Source: a virus. Taken from it: a stretch of 39,605 nt of DNA. The notes beneath the pieces are model-generated. The model had not been told where the DNA came from. It saw nothing but the letters and a program-made list of their open reading frames with translations, and ran no database searches. The position numbers and the translations under genes are program-made. Positions within the stretch are counted from its first letter, which is position 1, and the number at the start of each line of letters is the position of its first letter. Where the stretch lies: IMG/VR virus record IMGVR_UViG_3300037882_000035, positions 1 to 39,605 of that record; one strand, given 5' to 3'. Shown in pieces: positions 1,334-36,445 of the stretch.

Positions 1334-1795
1334 ATGGATAAATTATCAGTACGCCCGACAAAGTGGCCGGATAGACTAGCGTTAGACGTAGCTCTTACCC
1401 TTGAAGGTAGTGGTGAGACTATGGCTGAGGTTATGGCACGCTACGAAATCAATGCCGAGACGATGTTACTTATCGGGGCTGACCCAGTATTTAAAAGAAA
1501 AGTCAAAGACTACCGTACTGACATCATAGACAAAGGGCTGACTTTCAAAGTAAAAGCCCGAGCACAAGCAGAAGAATATCTACAAACGTCTTACCTACTC
1601 ATCCATGACCCGTCTGTTCCAGCCACGGTGAAAGCTGATTTAATCAAGAGTACGGTTCGTTGGGCTGGACTTGAACCGAAAGGAGAAGTGGTAGCCACTG
1701 ATGGTGGAGGGGTGAGTATCACAATCAACCTAGGCGATACATCCAAAGATATTAAGGTGATAGACGCACAGCCGGTACCCGTTGATGGCGCATGA
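1334..1795 (+). CDS. Small terminase subunit (putative)
   Basis: 153 residues, directly upstream of and overlapping the large terminase gene by 11 bases, the usual place for the DNA-recognition subunit of the packaging motor. The N-terminal part (residues about 15-45, with GETMAEVMARYEINAETM) resembles a helix-turn-helix; the centre is helical and charged; the C-terminal part ends in a beta-rich stretch (GVSITINLGDTS) like the portal-contacting end of small terminases. The frame is open upstream to a GTG at 1262, but that would begin inside the tRNA-like element, so ATG 1334 is chosen; its Shine-Dalgarno is weak (GGTGG). The role is inferred mainly from context because small terminases diverge strongly. 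Confidence 0.6.
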   Translation: MDKLSVRPTKWPDRLALDVALTLEGSGETMAEVMARYEINAETMLLIGADPVFKRKVKDYRTDIIDKGLTFKVKARAQAEEYLQTSYLLIHDPSVPATVKADLIKSTVRWAGLEPKGEVVATDGGGVSITINLGDTSKDIKVIDAQPVPVDGA

Positions 1796-4043
1796 AATAA
1801 ATTATACACCGCCTGCTACGAGTCGTAAGTTCATGCTTGACGATTCGAAAATGCGGGTACTTATGGGCCCAGTGGGTTGTGTACGCCCAGAGACTCTAGT
1901 GGTTACGGAGTATGGGCTACTTCCCATCTATCGTATAAATCGGCCAATGCGCGTTCTATCGTGGAACGACAAGACATGTCAATTCCAGCTTTCTTGGTGT
2001 GGTGGTTCGTTCCCAAAAGGTACGGACTATCTGTACCGAGTCGCAACGCGAGAAGGAGAATTTGTCGCAACCGGACATCACCGCGTTTATACCGGGCGAG
2101 GTGCATATTCACCCGTTGAATCTCTCGACCTAGGTCAGTCCTTACCCCAGTATTCAGGCGACCTGCCGCTGACACATTTGGTGCGCAGCCTGCTTTCGTC
2201 GCAGAAATGTGATGAGAGTTCGAAGCGAACAGCCGAAGGTTCTCTACGGAGTTATGCAGAGTTAGCCCGTCGATGTGGTCTACAACTTCTTGTGGATGAA
2301 GGTATCGACCTAAATGTTGTTCGAGAACTAAGCGATGTTCGTAAATCAGCTTTGTCTGCCGGTTCGTTCTTTTGCGTGCGTATGGATGGTCTGATGGACA
2401 GGTCACTAAGGCGTATCCATGATGGTCTATCCTCCGCCCGCACTTGTATTGGTGGTTATCTGAGTCGGGTTGGGCGCCTTCTTTCCTCCTCGGTAAGTCG
2501 CGTTCGTACATCACCCTCCGAACGTAACGAGGGCTTAACCCCACAATCTCAGCAATCTGATTCGATGTACGAATACCATCGGATAACTCGATTATTTGCT
2601 TCGTGTTCTCGTTCATTAGACCCTTCGCCCATTACCGAAAGGAACATTGTAAGCATAAAGAGAAACAAGTTCAAGCAGTCGTACTGGGACATGCAGGTAC
2701 TAGACACAAACAACTATGTCACATCTGATGGTACAATACACCACAACAGCGGCAAGAGCGTAACTTGTTGTTTTGAAATAATAAAACGAGCATCGGCGCA
2801 AGCGCCGGACAAAAACGGCATCCGTAGGACACGCTGTGCTGTGGTCCGTGAAACGGTTAAACAGCTTCAAGATACTACCATAAAAACGTTCCTCGATTGG
2901 TTCCCCGACGGTTTGTTCGGTACCTACGCCAAGACTTCCAAAACATACTACCTGAAGTTTGGAGATGTTGAGTGCGAGGTGATGTTCCGTGCGTTGGATG
3001 ATTCTGCTGATGTGGCGAACTTGAACTCGCTTGAGTTGACCTTTGCTTGGTTTAACGAGTGTCGAGACATACACCCTGATATTGTCGATGCAATGTCTAA
3101 GCGTATCGGGCGGTTCCCGTCTAAAAAAGATGGTGGGCCTACGTGGCATGGCATGTGGGGGGATACTAACCCACCGACGATGGACACTTGGTGGTACTAT
3201 CAGATGGAAGGTATAGACCCGAAAGATGGCGTGTCACCGCTGAACAACGGGTGGAAAGTATTTAAACAGCCGTCGGGTAGGAGTCCGTATGCAGAGAACC
3301 TTGAGAATCTACCAGAAGGATATTATGACACACAAGGGCGAAGCGAGGAATACATCCGTGTTTTCATCGACGGGCAGTACGGGCTTTCCTCAGCAGGAAC
3401 TCCTGTCTACAAGTATTTCAAACCCGACTACCACATGGCTAAAAGTAGCTTACGTCCATTTCTCAATGGCGTGCGCCCTCTGGTGGTTGGTATGGACTTG
3501 GGACTCACCCCCGCAGCTGTCATTGGGCAGCAGTGCCCGAGAGGACGAGCGCTGATACTGGATGAAGCAGTCAGTTTTGACATGGGGGCGCAGCGGTTCA
3601 TACGCACGGTGCTTAAGCCTCTGCTGTATGAAAGGTTCCCCGGCGCTCCCATCATAGTTGTGGTAGACCCTGCGGGGGTGCAGCGGGCACAGACTGATGA
3701 ACGGTCGGTTGTGGATATTATCAAAGCTGAAGGGCTGAAGGTTATCCCAGCGAAGACTAATTTGCTGCCGCCACGTCTTAATGCAGTTGATGAGTACCTC
3801 ATGAGACAAGTTGATGGGGACCCGGCATTTGTGGTAGACCCGAGGTGTTACCAGCTTAAAGCAGCCATGATGGGTGGATATAGGTACAAACCCAAAGGGG
3901 ACAACGCTATTGAGAAGAACAAAGCGTCGCACGTTGCTGAGGCTCTGCAATATCTTATGCTGCACATAACACATACGGGTGATTCAGCGATGTTGCCGCA
4001 AAGAAAAGAGATTAAGGTATTGTCATCGGCGGGTTGGACATGA
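1785..4043 (+). CDS. terL: Large terminase subunit (packaging ATPase-nuclease) precursor containing an intein
   Basis: Precursor of 752 residues. Residues 1-31 and 322-752 are terminase (462 after splicing); residues 32-321 are an intein. Joining the exteins restores the Walker A motif GPVG-SGKS. Walker B is at about 418-425 (LTFAWFNE, catalytic Glu425). The RNase H-like nuclease domain shows D571 (VVGMDLG), D628 (VVVDPAG) and a final SHVAEALQY with Glu719 where Asp is more usual. The protein cuts concatemeric DNA and pumps it through the portal with ATP. The P-loop is broken until splicing, so packaging should depend on intein excision. ATG 1785 is preferred over the TTG at 1782. An opposite-strand HNH gene is nested inside the intein. 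Confidence 0.93.
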   Translation: MAHEINYTPPATSRKFMLDDSKMRVLMGPVGCVRPETLVVTEYGLLPIYRINRPMRVLSWNDKTCQFQLSWCGGSFPKGTDYLYRVATREGEFVATGHHRVYTGRGAYSPVESLDLGQSLPQYSGDLPLTHLVRSLLSSQKCDESSKRTAEGSLRSYAELARRCGLQLLVDEGIDLNVVRELSDVRKSALSAGSFFCVRMDGLMDRSLRRIHDGLSSARTCIGGYLSRVGRLLSSSVSRVRTSPSERNEGLTPQSQQSDSMYEYHRITRLFASCSRSLDPSPITERNIVSIKRNKFKQSYWDMQVLDTNNYVTSDGTIHHNSGKSVTCCFEIIKRASAQAPDKNGIRRTRCAVVRETVKQLQDTTIKTFLDWFPDGLFGTYAKTSKTYYLKFGDVECEVMFRALDDSADVANLNSLELTFAWFNECRDIHPDIVDAMSKRIGRFPSKKDGGPTWHGMWGDTNPPTMDTWWYYQMEGIDPKDGVSPLNNGWKVFKQPSGRSPYAENLENLPEGYYDTQGRSEEYIRVFIDGQYGLSSAGTPVYKYFKPDYHMAKSSLRPFLNGVRPLVVGMDLGLTPAAVIGQQCPRGRALILDEAVSFDMGAQRFIRTVLKPLLYERFPGAPIIVVVDPAGVQRAQTDERSVVDIIKAEGLKVIPAKTNLLPPRLNAVDEYLMRQVDGDPAFVVDPRCYQLKAAMMGGYRYKPKGDNAIEKNKASHVAEALQYLMLHITHTGDSAMLPQRKEIKVLSSAGWT
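1903..2616 (-). CDS. HNH homing endonuclease encoded antisense inside the intein
   Basis: 237 residues, entirely within the intein but on the other strand. Residues about 15-45 form a helix-turn-helix (SNQIAEIVGLSPRYVRRVM). Residues about 63-136 are an HNH nuclease of the kind found in phage homing enzymes: YEHRLVLEQHLGRYL (His94), VVDHIDG (His114), then N122, ENLRLF and SNSHH. The last 80 or so residues lie opposite intein blocks A and B and look like run-on sequence up to the first stop. SD GAAGGG lies four bases before the ATG, and a sigma70-like promoter is at 2646-2674. Expected role: cut intein-free terL alleles so the element is copied in. The motifs are seen; cleavage specificity is inferred. 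Confidence 0.85.
   Translation of the reverse strand: MNENTKQIIELSDGIRTSNQIAEIVGLSPRYVRRVMYERDLPRRKEGAQPDSDNHQYKCGRRIDHHGYALVTCPSDHPYARKRTNRQTKLIYEHRLVLEQHLGRYLHPQEVVDHIDGLTLHNSVENLRLFASNSHHISATKAGCAPNVSAAGRLNTGVRTDLGREIQRVNMHLARYKRGDVRLRQILLLALRLGTDSPYLLGTNHHTKKAGIDMSCRSTIERALADLYDRWEVAHTP
2621..2626 (-). promoter_or_regulatory. Shine-Dalgarno of the antisense HNH gene
   Basis: On the minus strand GAAGGG ends four bases before ATG 2616. It supports separate translation of the nuclease from its own leftward transcript and helps fix the start. Confidence 0.6.
2646..2674 (-). promoter_or_regulatory. Sigma70-like promoter for the antisense HNH gene
   Basis: On the minus strand TTGAAC (2674-2669), exactly 17 bases, then TACAAT (2651-2646): four of six and five of six matches to consensus. 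Predicted start is near 2639, about 23 bases before the ATG. It lies within codons for the intein's C-terminal splicing region. Confidence 0.5.
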
Positions 4044-12663: not shown

Positions 12664-15528
12664 ATGCCTATCAAGCTGAAGAATAACGCGGTTGGGTACA
12701 CCGTCGAGGCCATAACAGACCAGACCACTACGTTTGCTTTGCAAAGCGGACAAGGGTCTAGGTTCCCGACCTTGGCTACTGGGGATTATTTTTACGCTAC
12801 AGTGCAGAGTGTATCCGGGTACTCTGAGATAATGAGGGTCACTGCGAGAACAGGCGATGTACTTACGGTAGTCCGTGGGGCTGAGGGGACTATACCTGTT
12901 GGGTTTAGTGTCGGGGCTAAAGTAGAGTTGCGCATTACTGCGCAGAGTGTTATAGATTTGTTTAGACCCAGCGGGTTTATATATGTAGACTCTTTAGTTG
13001 GGGACGGGGTTACTGATGATACTGCGGCGTTCCAAGCAGTTATCAATGGTGCTGATGAAGGTAGTGTTATTATCTTAGACGGCACTAAGCATTACTACAT
13101 TAGGAACTTAGTAAGTACTAAGCGTTTACTAATTGACGCTAGGGGGGCTAGATTTACGGCGCAGCCTTCTAATTCTTCTGGTGGTGGGTTACCTTGGCTT
13201 AGGTTTTCTGGTAGCGTTGGAGCAGTAAGGAGTATAAATACTGCGAATGTAGATGATTTGTCTGTTACGTTATCTACGGCATCTGAAGCGTCTGACTTTA
13301 GCGCCGGAGATTGGGTTTACGTTGGCGATTCTGAGGTTGTTCCTGCATGGAATGGTAGTGTAGGATGGACTGGTACTGCTGAGCTTACTAGGATCAGTTC
13401 CGTTAGTTCTGGAGTGGTGACGCTATCTAAGCCGATTGAGAAGACTTACGCATCTACTAACGCTGCGTACATACAGAAAGTTAACTTATTAGGTACATCA
13501 GGGATTATAAACATCGGTAGGCTGGTGGAAGTTAACCCTCCTGTGTCGGCACCGTCTCGTGGCACTAATGCGCCACATATAATTCAGTTTCTACATTGCC
13601 ATACTCCAGTGGCCAGACATAATAATATAGATTCGTTACAGCTACACGGGTTTAGTTGTGTGGGTTGTGTAGACCCTATGATTGATAGTAACTACGTAGG
13701 TAACGGGTTTAGACCAACCGTTGGCGGGCATGCGTACCATACCAGATTGGATAAGTGTTCTGGCGGTACTGTGCAATATAACAGAGCGTTTAAACTAAGA
13801 CACACTGTTGATTTCGTAGCTACAGTTGATGGGTTTTCCGCTAATAACCATACTACAGAAAATATATCGCACGCATATTATTGCCATGGTTTGTATGAAC
13901 GTAGGTGTACTTCTGTAGATGACTACGTAACTAATTCTACTGCCGGCGGCGGCGGGGGCTGGGCTGGGGGCAACCCTGATTTTGGGCCGTCTTTTGATTT
14001 CAAAGTTATTAGACCAAAAGCTAGGTGTCAAACTAATGGGGGTATTAGTTGGGTTTGCACAGCTGATGGGTTGTATGTGGAAGACCCGGACATTGTAATC
14101 TATGGAGAAGGTAGGGCATTAACTGTTAACTCTGGGGCTAAAAACGTAGTAGTTTCTGGGGGTAAGATAGACGTGTCTAGGTGTAGCGCTACTTCGACTA
14201 GGGCAGTTTTAGTTAGAGATACTTATGCTGCGGGCGATACATTCGGCATAATGTGCGAAAATATAAAGTTGGAAAATACCGAATATGTAGGATGTGTCGG
14301 CACTAATGGGGCGCAAATATGCGAGGTGCGTGCAGCCGGAGACGTAGACGTTTTAAACAATAAGTTTGTGTCTAATAATACCGGGGATGCGCTGTACATT
14401 AGCAATGCTGGTTTTGTTACCTCTGGGGTTATGTCGTCGTTACGAGCGGCTAATAATAGGTTCGTTGGTACAGCATCTACAGCAATAGAGGTTGTTGGGA
14501 CACCTACTGGTGTATACCAAGTCATGAATAACGCTATATCTGGTACTTATACTGGACAGCGGTTAATCATACCTGATAGTAATATCTTGAATAGATTTGC
14601 AAACGGGGATGGCATTTTTAGAATGACTTCCTTCGGGGTGTCTACTGTAACTACGGCTCCGAATTCTGGTTCTGTAGGGGCAACGGTATATGATGTTTTT
14701 GGACCGCAGGCTAGTATAGATATTATAGTTAGACCTAAAGGCAATGGCGCATTGTTGGGAGCAGTACCTGATAATACGCCGACTGGGGGGAACAAACGAG
14801 GTAGTTATGCTGTAGATTTTCAACTATTAAGGACATTAGCCACACAAGTGGCGTCTGGATATGCTTCATGCTTAATAGCTGGTGACAGTAATACTGCGTC
14901 TGGCAATAGGTCTATGTGTATATCTGGGCAGAATAACTTAGCTTCTGGCTTAGAGTCGTTGTGTATTTCAGGGGCGGGTAATGTATCGTCAGGTGTAGGG
15001 AGCGTAAACGTAGGTGGTAACGGCAATATAACTGATGGGGCATTTTCTTCAGCCGTAAGTGGTCGTAGAGGACATACTCGGGGTAGGTACTGCGGTTGGG
15101 TGCAAGGCTGCGAATCCGGTTCGCCGGGTAGGGCTCAAATGGCTGGTATGGCTTTAGCAGGGACCTCCACTGATGGTACGCCTATACTACTTACAGCTAA
15201 TGTGTCAGTAGCGGCGGATGCCACGAATCAGTTTTTTATGGAAAGCAATACACTATCTATGCTAACAGTTAATGTAACAGCTAGAAGCACTACTAATCCT
15301 AAGTCTAAAGGCTGGGTTATCCATGTTTTAGTAGAGAATAGGGGGGGAACGCTCGCTATAGTAGATACACCTACTATAGCTTTTGCTAAAGGAGTGTCGG
15401 GCACTACTGCTTGGGATGCTACGGTAGGTGTGGATAATACTCTAAAGGTTCTAACTATAACAGGAACCGGGGAGAACAGCGAAAATATAAGATGGGCTGC
15501 TGTCGTGGTCGGCGCGGAGACTGCATAA
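12664..15528 (+). CDS. Tailspike with pectate-lyase-type beta-helix and YadA-like repeats
   Basis: 954 residues. Residues 1-100 are an anchor module shared with the preceding small gene. Around 115-125 GDGVTDDTAAFQAVING is the signature at the start of right-handed beta-helix (pectin-lyase-like) spikes and depolymerases; the helix continues to about residue 650 with many short G/N-rich rungs. Residues about 735-815 contain repeats of the form ASGxxSxxxxGxxN (NTASGNRSMCISGQ, NLASGLESLCISGA), like the YadA head beta-roll. A C-terminal beta domain of about 130 residues may aid trimerisation. Likely the main receptor-binding protein, perhaps degrading surface polysaccharide; the catalytic residues cannot be named. 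Confidence 0.8.
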   Translation: MPIKLKNNAVGYTVEAITDQTTTFALQSGQGSRFPTLATGDYFYATVQSVSGYSEIMRVTARTGDVLTVVRGAEGTIPVGFSVGAKVELRITAQSVIDLFRPSGFIYVDSLVGDGVTDDTAAFQAVINGADEGSVIILDGTKHYYIRNLVSTKRLLIDARGARFTAQPSNSSGGGLPWLRFSGSVGAVRSINTANVDDLSVTLSTASEASDFSAGDWVYVGDSEVVPAWNGSVGWTGTAELTRISSVSSGVVTLSKPIEKTYASTNAAYIQKVNLLGTSGIINIGRLVEVNPPVSAPSRGTNAPHIIQFLHCHTPVARHNNIDSLQLHGFSCVGCVDPMIDSNYVGNGFRPTVGGHAYHTRLDKCSGGTVQYNRAFKLRHTVDFVATVDGFSANNHTTENISHAYYCHGLYERRCTSVDDYVTNSTAGGGGGWAGGNPDFGPSFDFKVIRPKARCQTNGGISWVCTADGLYVEDPDIVIYGEGRALTVNSGAKNVVVSGGKIDVSRCSATSTRAVLVRDTYAAGDTFGIMCENIKLENTEYVGCVGTNGAQICEVRAAGDVDVLNNKFVSNNTGDALYISNAGFVTSGVMSSLRAANNRFVGTASTAIEVVGTPTGVYQVMNNAISGTYTGQRLIIPDSNILNRFANGDGIFRMTSFGVSTVTTAPNSGSVGATVYDVFGPQASIDIIVRPKGNGALLGAVPDNTPTGGNKRGSYAVDFQLLRTLATQVASGYASCLIAGDSNTASGNRSMCISGQNNLASGLESLCISGAGNVSSGVGSVNVGGNGNITDGAFSSAVSGRRGHTRGRYCGWVQGCESGSPGRAQMAGMALAGTSTDGTPILLTANVSVAADATNQFFMESNTLSMLTVNVTARSTTNPKSKGWVIHVLVENRGGTLAIVDTPTIAFAKGVSGTTAWDATVGVDNTLKVLTITGTGENSENIRWAAVVVGAETA

Positions 15529-32100: not shown

Positions 32101-33585
32101 CACAAGACAGGTTTTGGCGGCGGATTTGGTTGGGGACAATCTGCTATTGAACTAGCTAAAGCCTTGGGCAATACCAAAAACAACAACCAAAGCGATGTGG
32201 GGTATTGGGACAAATTATTGAAAGACAGCGCAGCCTTGAAAGCCAGTGGCTTTAGTCGAGTAGAAGCAGAATTCATGCGCAAAGAAGTGGCCGGTGGTAC
32301 CATGCAAGCCGCGTTAACTAACTCACTATTGGGTTCTGCCCGAGGTAAGTTTAAATCCGGCGCAACTAAACGTTTCGGCGAAGCGTGGATGTCTATGTTC
32401 AACTATACTGAGCAGCACTCCCGCAGGGCCGCTGGACTAGCTGCATTCCGCATGGCCTACGCTAGAGCCATTGCAGAAGGCAAAGACGCGGACACAGCAT
32501 TTGAGGATGCGGATAAGCTAGCGGTCAATATGCTGGACGATACGCTTGGTGAATACGCCATGTTTAACCGACCTGCGATGTTCAGGGGTGGTATCCAGCA
32601 ATTCATTTTTATGTTTAAGATGTTCCCGATTAACTCTATCCAGATGCTGAATGCATTGCCACGCAAAGATATGCTGCTGGCTCTCGGGGTACTGGGGATG
32701 TTCTCAGGGTTGAAAGGTATGCCGTTTGCTGAGGACTTGATGGACATCATCGACACCATCGCGCAAGCGTTAGGGTTAGGTCCAAGCAAAGTTTGGAAAG
32801 GGAGCGTAGAGGTAACACTGGCGCAAGCGCTTAATGACTTTGCCCCCGGACTAACGCCGGTAATGATGCGCGGTATTTTAAACACATTCACACCTGCCAA
32901 CGTGGCTGACCGTGTATCGTTGTCCAACATCATACCGGGCACTGGTATCGGATTAGCTGGCGCGGATGTGGGTAGAGAGCTCATTGAAATCGCAGGACCT
33001 ATCGCATCATTCATGCAGGGTGCGATAGCTATGGGCGGCGACAGTATTAAATACGCATTAGAAACGGTTGGACTTAAAGAGGATGTTACCAGTCTCAACA
33101 AGATAGCGAGGGAATCCCCAGTGGCTTTCTTAAGGATACTTGGTGACATGTATGCCTACGATAACGCGGGAGCAATCGTCAGTCAGAAAGGGTACGTCGT
33201 CTCTGAGGATTTGCATATGGGGACCCTATTCGCACGGTCCCTTGGGTTCTACCCATCCTCAGCCACGGCACAGAATGATATTGTGAGATTGTCCAAGCGG
33301 ATTGGTGACTACCAGAAAGAGGTGTCTGGAATTTATCGTGGTATGTATGTCAAAGCCAAGGTCAACGGGGATGATGCACAAGCCCAAGAAGTTGTTCGTA
33401 TGGTACGCGAGTGGAATGATGCAGCTAAAGGGTCTGGTTTGGAAATCCCGAACTTCCAAATGAATGCTAACCGAGCATACAGGGAAGCACTAAAACCTGC
33501 GAGCGAGAGATATTTAAAGTCCACGTCAAAAAGTATCCGCCCCGTGACGGAGCAGATAGCCGATATATACGGGCTCAACGATTAA
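26176..33585 (+). CDS. Giant internal virion protein with metallopeptidase-like domain (2469 aa)
   Basis: The largest gene of the window. Residues about 210-250 form a Gly/Ala hydrophobic stretch (GALGFLGGTAVGGPVAGAGA). A Pro/Gln-rich linker region spans about 430-720. At 1147-1152 HETLGH, followed about 47 residues later by EAIEEYLADFAG, gives an HExxxH...E zinc-peptidase-like set, as in the metallopeptidase domains of polyvalent phage proteins. The far C-terminal part (FRGGIQQFIFMFKMFPINSI) resembles the large-polyvalent-protein LPD38-type end. Equivalent in place to T7 gp16 but almost twice as long. Probably co-ejected with DNA to form a conduit and to act on host proteins; activity is inferred. 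Its 3' end overlaps the convergent primase gene by 11 bases. Confidence 0.75.
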   Translation: MTKEGLQPFANPLLDMQQPNGVPSAVFNPFGFAPTPAPRQDEAAINQMGQLGVNMARQAGLPNTQINTTGVAYSKSLGKFYVQGITFDEDDAQSLVESKSWLQNPPVGLPTDGDWTPIDPQSYSQLVDSVQSPTLGKLAGKAFGRGVDSLQMLAGRGLQLAGAEQLGGNIVAQQAEDLRKSAPFERRFTNVETPRDAVEWFVANFAEQGPNIIEAVATGALGFLGGTAVGGPVAGAGAALAGLVGKTEFKNAVKAAAAKKLAGETLDAAETKLLREAAGITGAVAASYANNYATGAADIYGEMREQGVGADDVGARLTSLAGAIPYAALSSLPEYVLAGRLLGNAPARGAKSSLLKRGAIGLGAGGTLEGGTEAAQEALVMGLSGQDLNTPEAADRLINSFAAGFAIGGPFGAAANLKSGAPADMLKGSGVAEPDSPLGAQSPEEPPRLPYTPAEGLPAPEVPLSLPGPVQLLTPAGPSVFNVNPEGVAVQNKLLRQLGNIPPSQEPGSQGVLNVFDGLISEQELNARMQPVSAPTPEVQDIQPEPVVDPRQGALQFSGPPPVDEGVQNTQMSDQLRVIQERIRRQREYDAAQAELAARQQAEVEQLQRESRGARDLFIMRQNAQPKILPTAREVQTPAMPAQLPLFNRTEAPPVSRGEMLKRGGMAGALPEIPQQVTEQAPDAAQMSLFDEQGNPTIVEPTVTAPIQPMSPQEEWEDKKPEGALSYKDLPVGVRRAWEQDVASNRATMLRAEELADSVELSPAQAVNQSVADAKEAMTPREFRDSISSVIEYAYVMPEDTNNKAAIEAARKAMEDIVASDRYQQEVDNSLIDSINMLPSVEAVYTRGFEKGQYKPWFKRAINRGFLPRITTVIRGLSLDDATKLLESGLVRTGNLPVDTIKKYRAKNPVSGQGGTGTQNTIDNDAKRLADYIHELNTKTSEFNNKQKAQAINKLTLMYDKVRSAGGESFIDRAGNPLSAYFDELGDPYIGIVKNRVRVGTEEFSQEDIKQFEKDLRDAEYYMDLDEPPLSLDDWNVRGYGDDDYGDGRYFRDDGTPITQALPIGRTKLLTSSFVSKLSVKPKVHVYANQADLQAKNAQLYKRAAAARVNGDFDKVNAVGYSFGDGEVIVFSDRILTEKALNYVLAHETLGHFGFRSLLTPAQLNAALDGVYDSSPKVQAAVKTSMAARGMSKHEAIEEYLADFAGALDTNIIAKFWNAVKNFLNKLGVTFEDDMARYFVSQSRRYVRNGTVSGTFLDFAEMAKRAASVESGDDIANTGRFATMSDVYSDQNIVASSAAYARRSFDMQDIGNWFQQAKDAGVRIGDVWERIKGELKTMNFASRENRGYRRLYEILRDTNKDAARLRAKYNAMMDTVLSPAFEVLNGKYSKGATRAQIDTTSRMLREANAAKFASLSEEDIKSFGKLVVLVDNQPTVDPEVLKQLKAKGRFTLDDFKNGFEWQESVMEPVNGVSTEVKKTMRFEGIPTLTEQSPEWVMYNEVRETMDESAIDMLLANYTAGREARTNVERKAEQLLKRNLSENDKAFLDRITNKYMDMYNEGSTMSVSGATTFSKDSVQRASEFLRDFNTALLGKDTDRNAAMQSYFADAEYDDIYAGIEGLKAGSTMQRNDPKLKYAVQQAIANVVLTEESRGGAESFAKRTIAGGYVPYGREGNWQVRIQAVDPKTGQVYKVSEEYRSKLFFAQVDNKADALNMSKEVQGIFDSASDGLYEMEVLDGAEYVVKKVKFVAQAETAREESANTTNANLNEVIGVITRFNVSITPEERAKLVVGLTQQNASARRRLQRSNTPGVDPNTIKYVSKHLEATASAVARKRHRAEVDRLFDESDAESKQLWYGSEAEYKRRKAEWERAKKDPTMPEAAKRAARVEFDDYHFTYVTNSSETMGNRYLDRGRRLIAFMDSQSNVDYTDFASGEAASAVRTATTFAFMGASLATAILNYVGIATNALPAFSAYSHKTGFGGGFGWGQSAIELAKALGNTKNNNQSDVGYWDKLLKDSAALKASGFSRVEAEFMRKEVAGGTMQAALTNSLLGSARGKFKSGATKRFGEAWMSMFNYTEQHSRRAAGLAAFRMAYARAIAEGKDADTAFEDADKLAVNMLDDTLGEYAMFNRPAMFRGGIQQFIFMFKMFPINSIQMLNALPRKDMLLALGVLGMFSGLKGMPFAEDLMDIIDTIAQALGLGPSKVWKGSVEVTLAQALNDFAPGLTPVMMRGILNTFTPANVADRVSLSNIIPGTGIGLAGADVGRELIEIAGPIASFMQGAIAMGGDSIKYALETVGLKEDVTSLNKIARESPVAFLRILGDMYAYDNAGAIVSQKGYVVSEDLHMGTLFARSLGFYPSSATAQNDIVRLSKRIGDYQKEVSGIYRGMYVKAKVNGDDAQAQEVVRMVREWNDAAKGSGLEIPNFQMNANRAYREALKPASERYLKSTSKSIRPVTEQIADIYGLND

Positions 33586-36445
33586 CCGATTTAATCTGCC
33601 CCAGCAGCATGTTATCTAGTGACTCGTCAGCATCAGTTATTAGACCATGTAGTCTGGGGTGGTTGAGGTTAATGCCGACTACATAGCTTTGGCCCAGTTT
33701 AATGGGGGTGTCCTTGGCCAAGTATGCCTTGGTAGACTTCGGTGTGCATATGATGTTGTCGCTTTCAAATGTCTGTATGAACATCTTATAGTCAGCGCCT
33801 TTGTTTGACAACCATCGACGCAAGTGGGTTCTATCCAGCAGCACAGTGCCTGTAGATATAGGGTCTATGTTAGTGCGACGGTAGAAGTCGAACCGAACTC
33901 GCAGGTCTTTGCGGGGCATCCGGTTGAAATCCATAACTGGTTTGGCTGTACCTGTGTGGAATACCACAATCTGCGCGTCTGCTGTTTCGTTAAAGTATTC
34001 AGACAGAAGGTCATAAGCATCCATTTTAAACTCAGTGACCGCCCGCCTAATCGCACCTATCTGACTCAGCACCCACTCAATGCCTAATGTGTAGTCGAAA
34101 TTAATTAGGCCCCACTGCTTAGCCAATGACCCGGCCAAGTCTGCTAAGATAATAGCTTGCTGCCAGTACCGCTCCGGTCCAGAGAAGTCTGCTTTGTACC
34201 GTAGGCTGAACGTGTCGGTAGCTTCAGCGATGGCTGCCTTAATACCTTGGGGGCCAAGTTCGACTAGCCGTTTTAAAAATTCGCGGCCTACTATCCCGTG
34301 GTTATCGTTGATGAACTCGTATATTTTACGACCGGCTGTGCTGTCTGCTGTGAATATCCGGCATGGTGGCATACTAACCTCAAGTATCCGAGCCATCTGT
34401 GCATCAGTGTCTAGTCCCGACGAAATCAACTTAGAGTTTAGTGATTTGTTCGTACTCACAATAACGGGCATGGCCCATGTCTTTGCTTCGCGTTCTTCAG
34501 TTGTCCTGCTCAGGCGGGCTTTATCCCGCCCCTGCGATACCCAGTAAGCAAAGTCACCCACTTCTTTATCGTCCATGAGGGTAACTTCATCAATCGTCAT
34601 GGGCATGTGAGAGTAAAGCCCCATCCTGCCGAACAAAGCATTCTGTGTGAACTTAGCTGAGAAATGCAGCTTTTCAGGGTTGCCGTAGATAGACTGTATC
34701 CACATCTGCGCCAGTGATTTACCGCCACCAGTGGCACCGTACAGTGATATCGTCAAACCTTTAAGCCCAGTGAATGCATAGAGTGGCCCGCTAAAGCCCA
34801 CTGCTAGTGCAAACATGTGCCCTCGCAAATCAGCCACATCTAATATCTTGCTGAATGCTACCCAGTCCTGAAGCGTGCCTGCTGTTGTGTACAACTCTTG
34901 TCCGAGGCGGGCTGTCAGTGACGCCATATTAAGCTGTTCAATCTTTGTAACGCCATCCGTACTCTTCCGAATCAGCGCATCCCCGAGAATAAACTGGGTG
35001 TTGTTTTCCTTCCAGCCCATCGAATTGTAGAGGTTAGTCATCGCCCGCATTTGGCGTAGCTCTTCCATATAGGCTCTTAACATAGTTTGAAACAACTCCG
35101 TTTGTGCTTTGTTTTGCAACACGATACCTTGGTCGGCAATAGCCGTGGGGAAATCGCGGTGTTTGTCTGTTAGCAGCGCTTGCCGCATAGTCAGCTCAGT
35201 CCAACCAGTATGCTTGCGATGCCACATGTACCGAACTGTTTCATACCCTAGGCTATCGTCTCGACCATAGCTGACTGGGTATATGTCGAACTTGCATACG
35301 TCAATATCGGACTCATCAATAGTTAGCTTAATGCCATCGGCTGTGCGTTTGAATGGTTTAGGTATCGTTACGTAATTCGCAGCATTCGCCGGGGCATCAG
35401 CAGCCGGTGGTACTTCGGCGTACTGTACGCCAAGCCTTATCGGGGTACCTACTTTGTCTTTGTACTTACACCCCTTACATCCTTCAGGATGCAGGTCTTC
35501 TAAGCGTGCGCATGTGGTCGGCCCGGTTGTAGTGCTGCGCCACTGGTTTAACTTCTTAAGCGTTCCAGCTTCGCTGAATTGTGGGTGGCCCTTTGACCAC
35601 TCCATCGCTGTCTCTTCAGGGTTTTCGCAGTAAGCCGCAATACCCATAACCGAGTACCAAATCGGCTCAGGTACGTCGGCGGGTTGGCGGGTACACCACT
35701 GTACTTGCTGGCATTTAACAGCCACGACTGCTGCGACAGCAGGTGGTGAATCGTTACGTACCTTAAGCGAATCGGATAGTCCGGTGTCTCGATGCTGCAA
35801 GTGTGCAGGCATTATGGGTATTACTTTGGTGGTATATGCAGATACTGCTGCTGACAATACGCCAAAGTCCACATCTGGCGAGTCTATCAGCAGCTTAACT
35901 TCTTTATTATGTTTGTGGTTTATTGTGCCTACGGGTCTTAATATCCTAGCGTTGTCGCCCGTGATAGCCCGGTCTATACTAAACCCATGTGCTTTAGCAA
36001 CTTCTTTAACTGCATCCGCTACGGGCTTCCACTGCGTGGGTAACTGTGGTTGTGTCAGCACCCAGTACACATGCAGCCCGCCACCGCTCCCGACTACCAT
36101 GGGCGCTGGTAACTTAGATGCTGCTAAGAAATCACCAAGCGCCTGAAGCCCAGATTTCCAATCTGTGTATGGCTTGGATGGTCCACAGTCCACGTCTATC
36201 GCGATAACTTTTGTACATGAAACATTAGCTTGTGTACGTCCGGCATCACAATCGTTATACGCGGAAATAGCGTAGTAAGCGTCTAGTCCAGAGTCAGACA
36301 TGCGACGTAATGCCTTGCTCATCGCATCTAAATCTCGAAAGTAAGTATGTTTAAACGGGGTGTCTGTGCCCGATTTAATACTCGCTGTGAAATACAAAGA
36401 TGGCGGCGACGGCAGTACGCGCTTGAGAAATTCTAGCGTGTTCAT
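33575..36445 (-). CDS. Primase-helicase (AEP-like PrimPol plus DUF927-type ATPase)
   Basis: 956 residues. The N-terminal domain shows archaeo-eukaryotic primase motifs: IAIDVDCG (D84, D86), SGGGLHVYWVL (H125) and RILRPVGTINHK (about 167-178). Residues about 255-340 form a PriCT-like/zinc region (TCARLEDLHPEGCKGCKYKD, then IRLG). The C-terminal half is a DUF927-type ATPase with Walker A GATGGGKS (570-577) and a Walker-B-like MTIDEVT. It should prime and unwind DNA at the phage fork. GGAG precedes ATG 36445. It is the last gene of the leftward replication operon and no terminator is seen after it. Confidence 0.85.
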   Translation of the reverse strand: MNTLEFLKRVLPSPPSLYFTASIKSGTDTPFKHTYFRDLDAMSKALRRMSDSGLDAYYAISAYNDCDAGRTQANVSCTKVIAIDVDCGPSKPYTDWKSGLQALGDFLAASKLPAPMVVGSGGGLHVYWVLTQPQLPTQWKPVADAVKEVAKAHGFSIDRAITGDNARILRPVGTINHKHNKEVKLLIDSPDVDFGVLSAAVSAYTTKVIPIMPAHLQHRDTGLSDSLKVRNDSPPAVAAVVAVKCQQVQWCTRQPADVPEPIWYSVMGIAAYCENPEETAMEWSKGHPQFSEAGTLKKLNQWRSTTTGPTTCARLEDLHPEGCKGCKYKDKVGTPIRLGVQYAEVPPAADAPANAANYVTIPKPFKRTADGIKLTIDESDIDVCKFDIYPVSYGRDDSLGYETVRYMWHRKHTGWTELTMRQALLTDKHRDFPTAIADQGIVLQNKAQTELFQTMLRAYMEELRQMRAMTNLYNSMGWKENNTQFILGDALIRKSTDGVTKIEQLNMASLTARLGQELYTTAGTLQDWVAFSKILDVADLRGHMFALAVGFSGPLYAFTGLKGLTISLYGATGGGKSLAQMWIQSIYGNPEKLHFSAKFTQNALFGRMGLYSHMPMTIDEVTLMDDKEVGDFAYWVSQGRDKARLSRTTEEREAKTWAMPVIVSTNKSLNSKLISSGLDTDAQMARILEVSMPPCRIFTADSTAGRKIYEFINDNHGIVGREFLKRLVELGPQGIKAAIAEATDTFSLRYKADFSGPERYWQQAIILADLAGSLAKQWGLINFDYTLGIEWVLSQIGAIRRAVTEFKMDAYDLLSEYFNETADAQIVVFHTGTAKPVMDFNRMPRKDLRVRFDFYRRTNIDPISTGTVLLDRTHLRRWLSNKGADYKMFIQTFESDNIICTPKSTKAYLAKDTPIKLGQSYVVGINLNHPRLHGLITDADESLDNMLLGQIKSVNR

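Follow-up and report, generated by a model that had tools for sequence, protein, structure and literature searches.

A predicted HNH homing endonuclease gene antisense to an intein in a phage large terminase gene

Introduction

How can an intein carry a nuclease that is not encoded as a part of it? As a rule, the nuclease domain of an intein shares the strand and the reading frame of the splicing domain, which is not the case at the locus described here. In a viral contig of 39,605 nt (IMG/VR record IMGVR_UViG_3300037882_000035, analysed over its whole length and referred to as the window), the large terminase gene is interrupted by an insert whose opposite strand contains a second ORF. An earlier note on this DNA had described this ORF as a minus-strand frame of 237 codons with HTH and HNH motifs, situated wholly inside the terL intein, which is confirmed by ORF calls and an HNH match. 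In our opinion the locus very probably represents a mobile intein that interrupts the P-loop of the large terminase of a phage and has its homing endonuclease on the opposite strand; expression, cutting and splicing are inferred.

Organization of the Locus

The terL ORF for the large terminase subunit (1782..4043, plus strand) comprises 753 aa counted from a TTG at 1782 and is matched by phrog_979 (E 9.8e-5) and TIGR01547 (E 7.4e-7). A tblastn alignment to phage TerL begins exactly where the intein ends. The intein (1878..2747, plus strand) extends over 290 aa from Cys1 to Asn290, followed by Ser at +1, and is inserted into the Walker A loop between GPVG and SGKS. Its conserved blocks are found on the same strand at 1878..1916 (block A, CVRPETLVVTEYG), 2055..2090 (block B region, GEFVATGHHRVY, with the TxxH motif), and 2679..2747 (blocks F and G, YWDMQVLDTNNYVT..DGTIHHN).

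The minus-strand nuclease gene (1903..2616; ATG start, TAA stop, 237 aa) is fully enclosed by the open plus-strand ORF 1782-4043 and lies entirely within the intein, of which it covers 714 of 870 bases. Residues 6-230 of its product match PHROG 10730, annotated as HNH endonuclease (E 2.2e-56), which is very likely the same family, and the match to Pfam HNH_3 (PF13392, E 3.6e-8) exceeds the curated cut-off. The proposal of the earlier note, which would have fallen without a significant HNH match, has thus passed this check; matches of the HTH part in Pfam are weak.

Three domains were delimited in the minus-strand protein. The HTH DNA-binding domain (residues 1-45; 2482..2616) is supported by structural HTH matches in addition to the weak Pfam matches. 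It is followed by the HNH catalytic domain (residues ~60-145; 2182..2439), which is matched by PF13392 and contains the motifs EHR (2332-2340), DHIDG..HN (2251-2280), and NLRLFxxNxxH (2209-2241). Across 40 sequences, no variation was observed at E93, H94, R95, D113, H114, H121, N122, N126, N133, and H136. For the helical C-terminal domain (residues ~165-233; 1918..2124), located antisense to the N-terminal splicing domain of the intein, phrog_10730 is the only family matched.

Structure models were based on an alignment with rows from viral contigs only. AlphaFold2 (AF2) predicted the minus-strand protein with a mean pLDDT of 84.7, with values of ~90 for the HTH, ~95 for the beta-beta-alpha HNH fold, and ~90-97 for the C-terminal domain, which spans residues 171-233 in the model. 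The closest structure to the nuclease part is I-HmuI (1u3e), with a Foldseek probability of 0.99 but an E of 0.15; comparison by VIA gave a Z of 7.0 over 74 residues at an rmsd of 3.0. I-HmuI is a group I intron enzyme, which shares the HNH fold and differs in its extra domains. When the sequences of solved structures were searched with the nuclease, the sole match was a repeat protein, which aligned to the HTH part. No strong structural relatives of the C-terminal domain were found, which does not establish a new fold.

Two other interpretations of the region were rejected. A group I intron or structured RNA is not supported, since no Rfam match with E <= 1 occurs in 1500-3100 and the host ORF is continuous. 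A nuclease in the plus frame can be dismissed as well, since none of the nuclease families searched with the plus-strand translation matched.

Two further genes of the window are mentioned here as observations on their own. At 33575-36445 (minus strand), opposite in orientation to the structural genes, a protein of 956 aa is encoded, in which a DUF927 domain was detected (E 4.5e-32). At 12664-15528 (plus strand), a 954-aa protein displays a weak match to a beta-roll ice-binding-like repeat, which remains under the curated cut-off.

Relatives in Viral Contigs and Isolated Phages

A scan of viral contigs with the nuclease yielded 27 loci and a profile scan 80 loci. Selection for the nuclease was avoided by a further search with nothing but the two splicing domains (N- and C-terminal) as queries. 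In this way, 84 non-redundant inteins of the family were found including that of the window, namely 77 full members (plus frame open and 210 aa or more on the minus strand; window counted), three shortened members, and four mini-inteins without the nuclease core. Related terL inteins had been named in the earlier note as the place to look for the same antisense frame, and the arrangement indeed recurs in 77 of the 84. All full-length relatives share the same layout: the nuclease runs antisense to terL, whose frame stays open and carries intein blocks to either side of the nuclease, and the remaining two antisense frames carry 2-17 stops. All three motif tests (EHR, DH.DG..HN, and NLR.F..N..H) were passed by 71 of the 77 full members.

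In 74 of the 77, the minus-strand stop is located 15-39 nt inside the intein edge, and the other three extend into the N-extein. As the gene stops inside the edge, it would travel within the mobile unit. In 66 of 77 inteins, the stop (1903-1905 in the window) is confined to a small set of positions, for the most part at a distance of 24 or 39 bases from the first intein base.

Relatives were also detected in two genome-collection contigs (L105 and L106) and in isolated phages, i.e., Pseudoalteromonas phage PHS3, the Pectobacterium phages Ymer, Abuela, Sabo, Taid, Pappous, Koroua, and Amona, and Dickeya phage Setonix. Among the isolated phages, the arrangement was verified in detail for PHS3, Sabo, and Ymer. 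Free-standing copies of the full nuclease family were not seen; relatives outside inteins are partial HNH matches (L107-L109 and other phage HNHs).

In case of PHS3 (L028/L356, KX912252.1, 17336-19857), two separate genes are listed, namely a shortened terminase CDS and the copy of the PHROG 10730 nuclease, which is labelled as a plain HNH gene. The record does not identify the N-terminal half of this intein-bearing terL as such, and thereby misses the intein. In Sabo and Ymer (L029 and L030), the intein-containing terL of ~755 aa is labelled 'hypothetical protein' and the antisense HNH gene is unannotated.

Expression Signals of the Antisense Gene

Shine-Dalgarno-like matches are spaced upstream of the start codon near the HTH. 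In the window, the leader (2617..2646, minus strand) contains only a weak AAGG, and a stronger GGAG or GGAGG is present in most relatives. Matches of at least 4 bases were found for 71 of 77 minus-strand genes, compared to 12% of internal start-like codons, and matches of at least 5 bases for 53 of 77, compared to 0.7%. These counts are biased upward, because each gene was scored by the most favourable of its several possible starts. The search for minus-strand promoters gave no signal above chance; a TTGAAC-17-TACAAT is situated 30 nt upstream of the start, but the number of such matches does not exceed that in shuffled sequences.

Selection on Both Strands

Due to the frame offset, plus position 2 is opposite the wobble base of the minus codon and plus position 3 is opposite minus position 2. 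For 34 disjoint pairs, the differences per site were determined separately for plus positions 1/2/3. Typical plus-coding values were obtained for the C-extein (0.27/0.20/0.54), the N edge of the intein preceding the minus stop (0.26/0.11/0.60), and the C-terminal splicing domain (0.22/0.13/0.43). The pattern is reversed in the HNH part (0.20/0.44/0.16) and in the HTH part (0.26/0.55/0.22). Over 2067-2612, position 2 exceeds position 3 in 34 of 34 pairs. The flip has a P of 1e-66 for the HTH and 1e-84 for the HNH part, its sign is the opposite in exteins and intein edges, and the switch of the substitution pattern coincides with the ends of the minus ORF.

When synonymous codons of each minus-strand gene were shuffled, a mean of 4.5-8.5 stops was expected in the plus frame, while none was observed in any of 23 sequences (P of 0.0025 or less for each). 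Taking the position-2 peak together with this stop avoidance, the minus-strand protein is conserved over the HNH/HTH stretch and the plus-strand protein merely held open. The corresponding plus-strand linker (2181..2612) presents itself as an open, unconserved spacer, and in the AF2 model of the intein the pLDDT drops from ~96 at residues 1-95 and 250-290 to below 50 at residues 158-247, mostly modelled as disorder. The claim of the earlier note that the plus strand opposite the HNH core lacks a nuclease motif and resembles shadow sequence is in good agreement with the fastest change at plus position 2, the predominant disorder, and the absence of stops. As a correction, the nuclease is not opposite the linker alone, since its C-terminal third (~1903-2124) runs antisense to blocks A-B, i.e., to the splicing domain at the N-terminus of the intein.

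Opposite the N-terminal splicing block (1902-2066), all three plus positions are conserved (0.13/0.13/0.20), which places both strands under selection and makes the stretch truly dual-coding. A different explanation is that the minus-strand protein functionally ends at the HNH domain and that its C-terminal part is shadow sequence, with no constraint other than that of the intein or of an RNA structure. This remains conceivable, since the C-terminal part is matched by phrog_10730 only and lacks a strong structural match, and an alignment of shadow sequence can also yield a confident model. Yet a value of 0.20 per site at plus position 3 is difficult to reconcile with 0.43-0.60 in the intein parts that code on the plus strand only, measured in the same pairs, and all 77 full members are open to a nearly identical stop position. 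Furthermore, in most pairs of mini-inteins, the formerly dual stretch is freer at plus position 3 (0.47-0.58, compared to an average of 0.35 in full pairs of similar divergence). This fits a loss of the minus-strand gene, but is suggestive only, because it relies on four sequences that are not independent. On balance we regard a non-functional C-terminus as doubtful.

With respect to the origin of the dual-coding stretch, we lean towards the C-terminal nuclease domain having arisen by overprinting the reverse strand of the N-terminal splicing domain, so that ~160-220 base pairs would encode two selected domains. Later overprinting fits the observation that the nuclease domain matches wider HNH families and the C-terminal domain this family only.

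Alleles, Decay and Spread

Several relatives show stages of decay. In L150, L162, and L164, the HTH was lost through in-frame deletion, and EHR is damaged in the latter two. In L186, L240, L247, and L248, the entire HNH core is gone and the splicing blocks are retained, leaving inteins of 135-152 aa. Relatives with a broken minus frame and a conserved plus linker would have contradicted the antisense proposal of the earlier note; in L240 and L247, where stops interrupt the minus-strand remnant, the linker is deleted and the splicing blocks stay, so that no such contradiction arises.

In one phage group with exteins of 98-99% amino acid identity, the site is empty in L347-L349, occupied by a full intein in L245, and by mini-inteins in L240 and L247. 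The members of this group stem in part from the same metagenomes, and metagenome 3300035661 holds its empty, full, and mini alleles together. Such coexistence at 98-99% extein identity is what a homing cycle predicts. Empty sites are common among terL relatives similar to that of the window (amino acid identity up to 85%); in 80 of 80 fetched, the intein was absent and the host sequence at the site intact.

These alleles also bear on the idea that the HNH protein is a packaging partner of the terminase rather than a homing enzyme, and is parked in the intein by chance. The position in terL would suit such a function, and HNH proteins aid terminases in some phages (PMC11855218). On the other hand, nuclease-less alleles persist in phages with 98% identical terminases, the gene is situated inside the intein and stops before its edge, and this HNH family is absent from the fetched flanks (up to 2.5 kb) of the 80 close relatives with uninterrupted terL. 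A packaging role is thus improbable, and a homing function remains the preferred interpretation.

Flank identities in the group with empty, full, and mini alleles gave no clear gradient toward the insertion site, which speaks neither for nor against a co-conversion tract there. HNH and extein identities are correlated (rho 0.71) with strong exceptions both ways, and some pairs combine extein identities of 13-28% with HNH identities of 54-69%. Judged from these identities, the spread is consistent with a mixture of vertical and horizontal transmission, and within related phages much of it may be vertical. The mini-inteins found look like later losses. That the arrangement originated from a mini-intein gaining a reverse nuclease is a reasonable inference, but was not observed.

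Nature of the Plus-Strand Insert

Blocks A, B, F, and G are kept across the aligned inteins. Cys1, the block A nucleophile, is invariant in 48 aligned inteins, the C-terminal HHN is invariant as well, and +1 is Ser, Thr, or Cys in every full-length relative inspected. In block B, which reads TGHH in the window, His68 is invariant, but many relatives have Asn, Ala, or Ser at the position of the usual Thr, a deviation that counts against the preferred interpretation. As a side aspect, antisense coding may or may not constrain this catalytic site (2055-2090).

It could be argued that the insert is simply tolerated by the terminase and hides a nuclease, comparable to the ShiLan domain, without splicing at all, as its scores against Pfam and NCBIfam intein models stay under the cut-offs. 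This is very hard to maintain in view of the intein blocks, the HN-Ser/Thr/Cys junction, and the plus-coding evolution of the edges. In addition, the AF2 model displays a HINT fold, with the Ssp DnaB mini-intein as the best Foldseek match among solved inteins (E 1.9e-8), and the split Walker A loop has to be restored for an active ATPase. By its blocks, junction, and modelled fold, the plus-strand insert is an intein, with protein splicing itself being inferred. That the minus ORF is merely a dead or chance ORF can practically be discarded despite the frequency of long antisense ORFs opposite coding sequences, several of which occur in the window, given the stop avoidance, the invariant catalytic HNH residues, the wobble-position pattern, and the confident fold.

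Proposed Mechanism

According to the sequence, the plus strand encodes a normal splicing domain with a merely open spacer at the usual position of a nuclease domain, and the minus strand an HTH-HNH nuclease with a separate start codon. By inference, the terminase would be restored through protein splicing. The nuclease would be produced from an antisense transcript and is expected to cleave or nick the Walker A codons of terL genes that lack the intein. Repair of the break would then copy the entire intein, nuclease included, into it. Once the site is fixed, the nuclease may decay via in-frame deletions that preserve splicing, giving rise to mini-inteins. A likely benefit, which is inferred as well, is the uncoupling of nuclease expression from terminase expression and from folding within the spliced protein.

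Comparison to Known Systems

With mobile inteins and mini-inteins, the locus has in common that a HINT domain interrupts a conserved catalytic site, that empty alleles exist, that the nuclease is located between blocks B and F, and that decay leads to mini-inteins. It differs in that the nuclease is not an in-frame domain, but has its own gene on the opposite strand, a part of which runs antisense to the splicing blocks. In the 'fractured genes' of Dassa et al., a free-standing nuclease gene reportedly lies between the halves of a split intein. There, too, the nuclease is a protein separate from the intein, but the host ORF is in two pieces, whereas the terL ORF remains uninterrupted across the nuclease gene on the opposite strand. 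PHROG 10730 matches over the full length, but its family record is silent on an antisense location in an intein.

Among nuclear group I introns, antisense homing endonuclease genes are known, one example being Dsq.L2066 with I-DsqI (PMC9548176). In this case, the gene is likewise antisense to a self-splicing carrier element; in contrast to our locus, the carrier is an RNA intron in eukaryotic rDNA, the enzyme is of the His-Cys type, the gene is placed in a peripheral RNA loop, and no second frame has to be kept open. The ShiLan domain and the Pacc40 insertion represent hidden, out-of-frame HNH nucleases in phage methylases (PMC11855218). Both are mobile and found in phages, and the out-of-frame HNH is located in an insertion that leaves the host frame open, as observed here. 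Unlike the locus in terL with its splicing blocks, HINT fold, and opposite-strand HNH, they are encoded on the same strand without a splicing domain, and no antisense reading was reported.

Literature searches revealed no description of an antisense intein nuclease. These searches did not extend to a preprint (10.1101/2025.01.02.630785) about inteins of actinobacteriophages with a 'non-canonical architecture', cited for overlapping frames by PMC11855218, and a prior description therein is not excluded. Hence, the architecture should be considered as a variant of the mobile intein rather than as categorically new, and the preprint may describe something close.

Conclusions

The arrangement breaks the rule that an intein nuclease is part of the protein that is spliced out, and could render expression of the nuclease independent of the host gene. 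Current annotation conceals it, as either the terminase is shortened or the nuclease is missed. As a case of antisense overlap it is unusually clean: the function of both protein families is identified, relatives number more than 70, and natural deletions of one of the two genes serve as controls. Cultivable carriers are available with Pseudoalteromonas phage PHS3 and the Pectobacterium phages. The empty, full, and mini alleles with near-identical exteins (L240, L245, L247, and L347-L349) make the homing cycle directly testable in a natural population.
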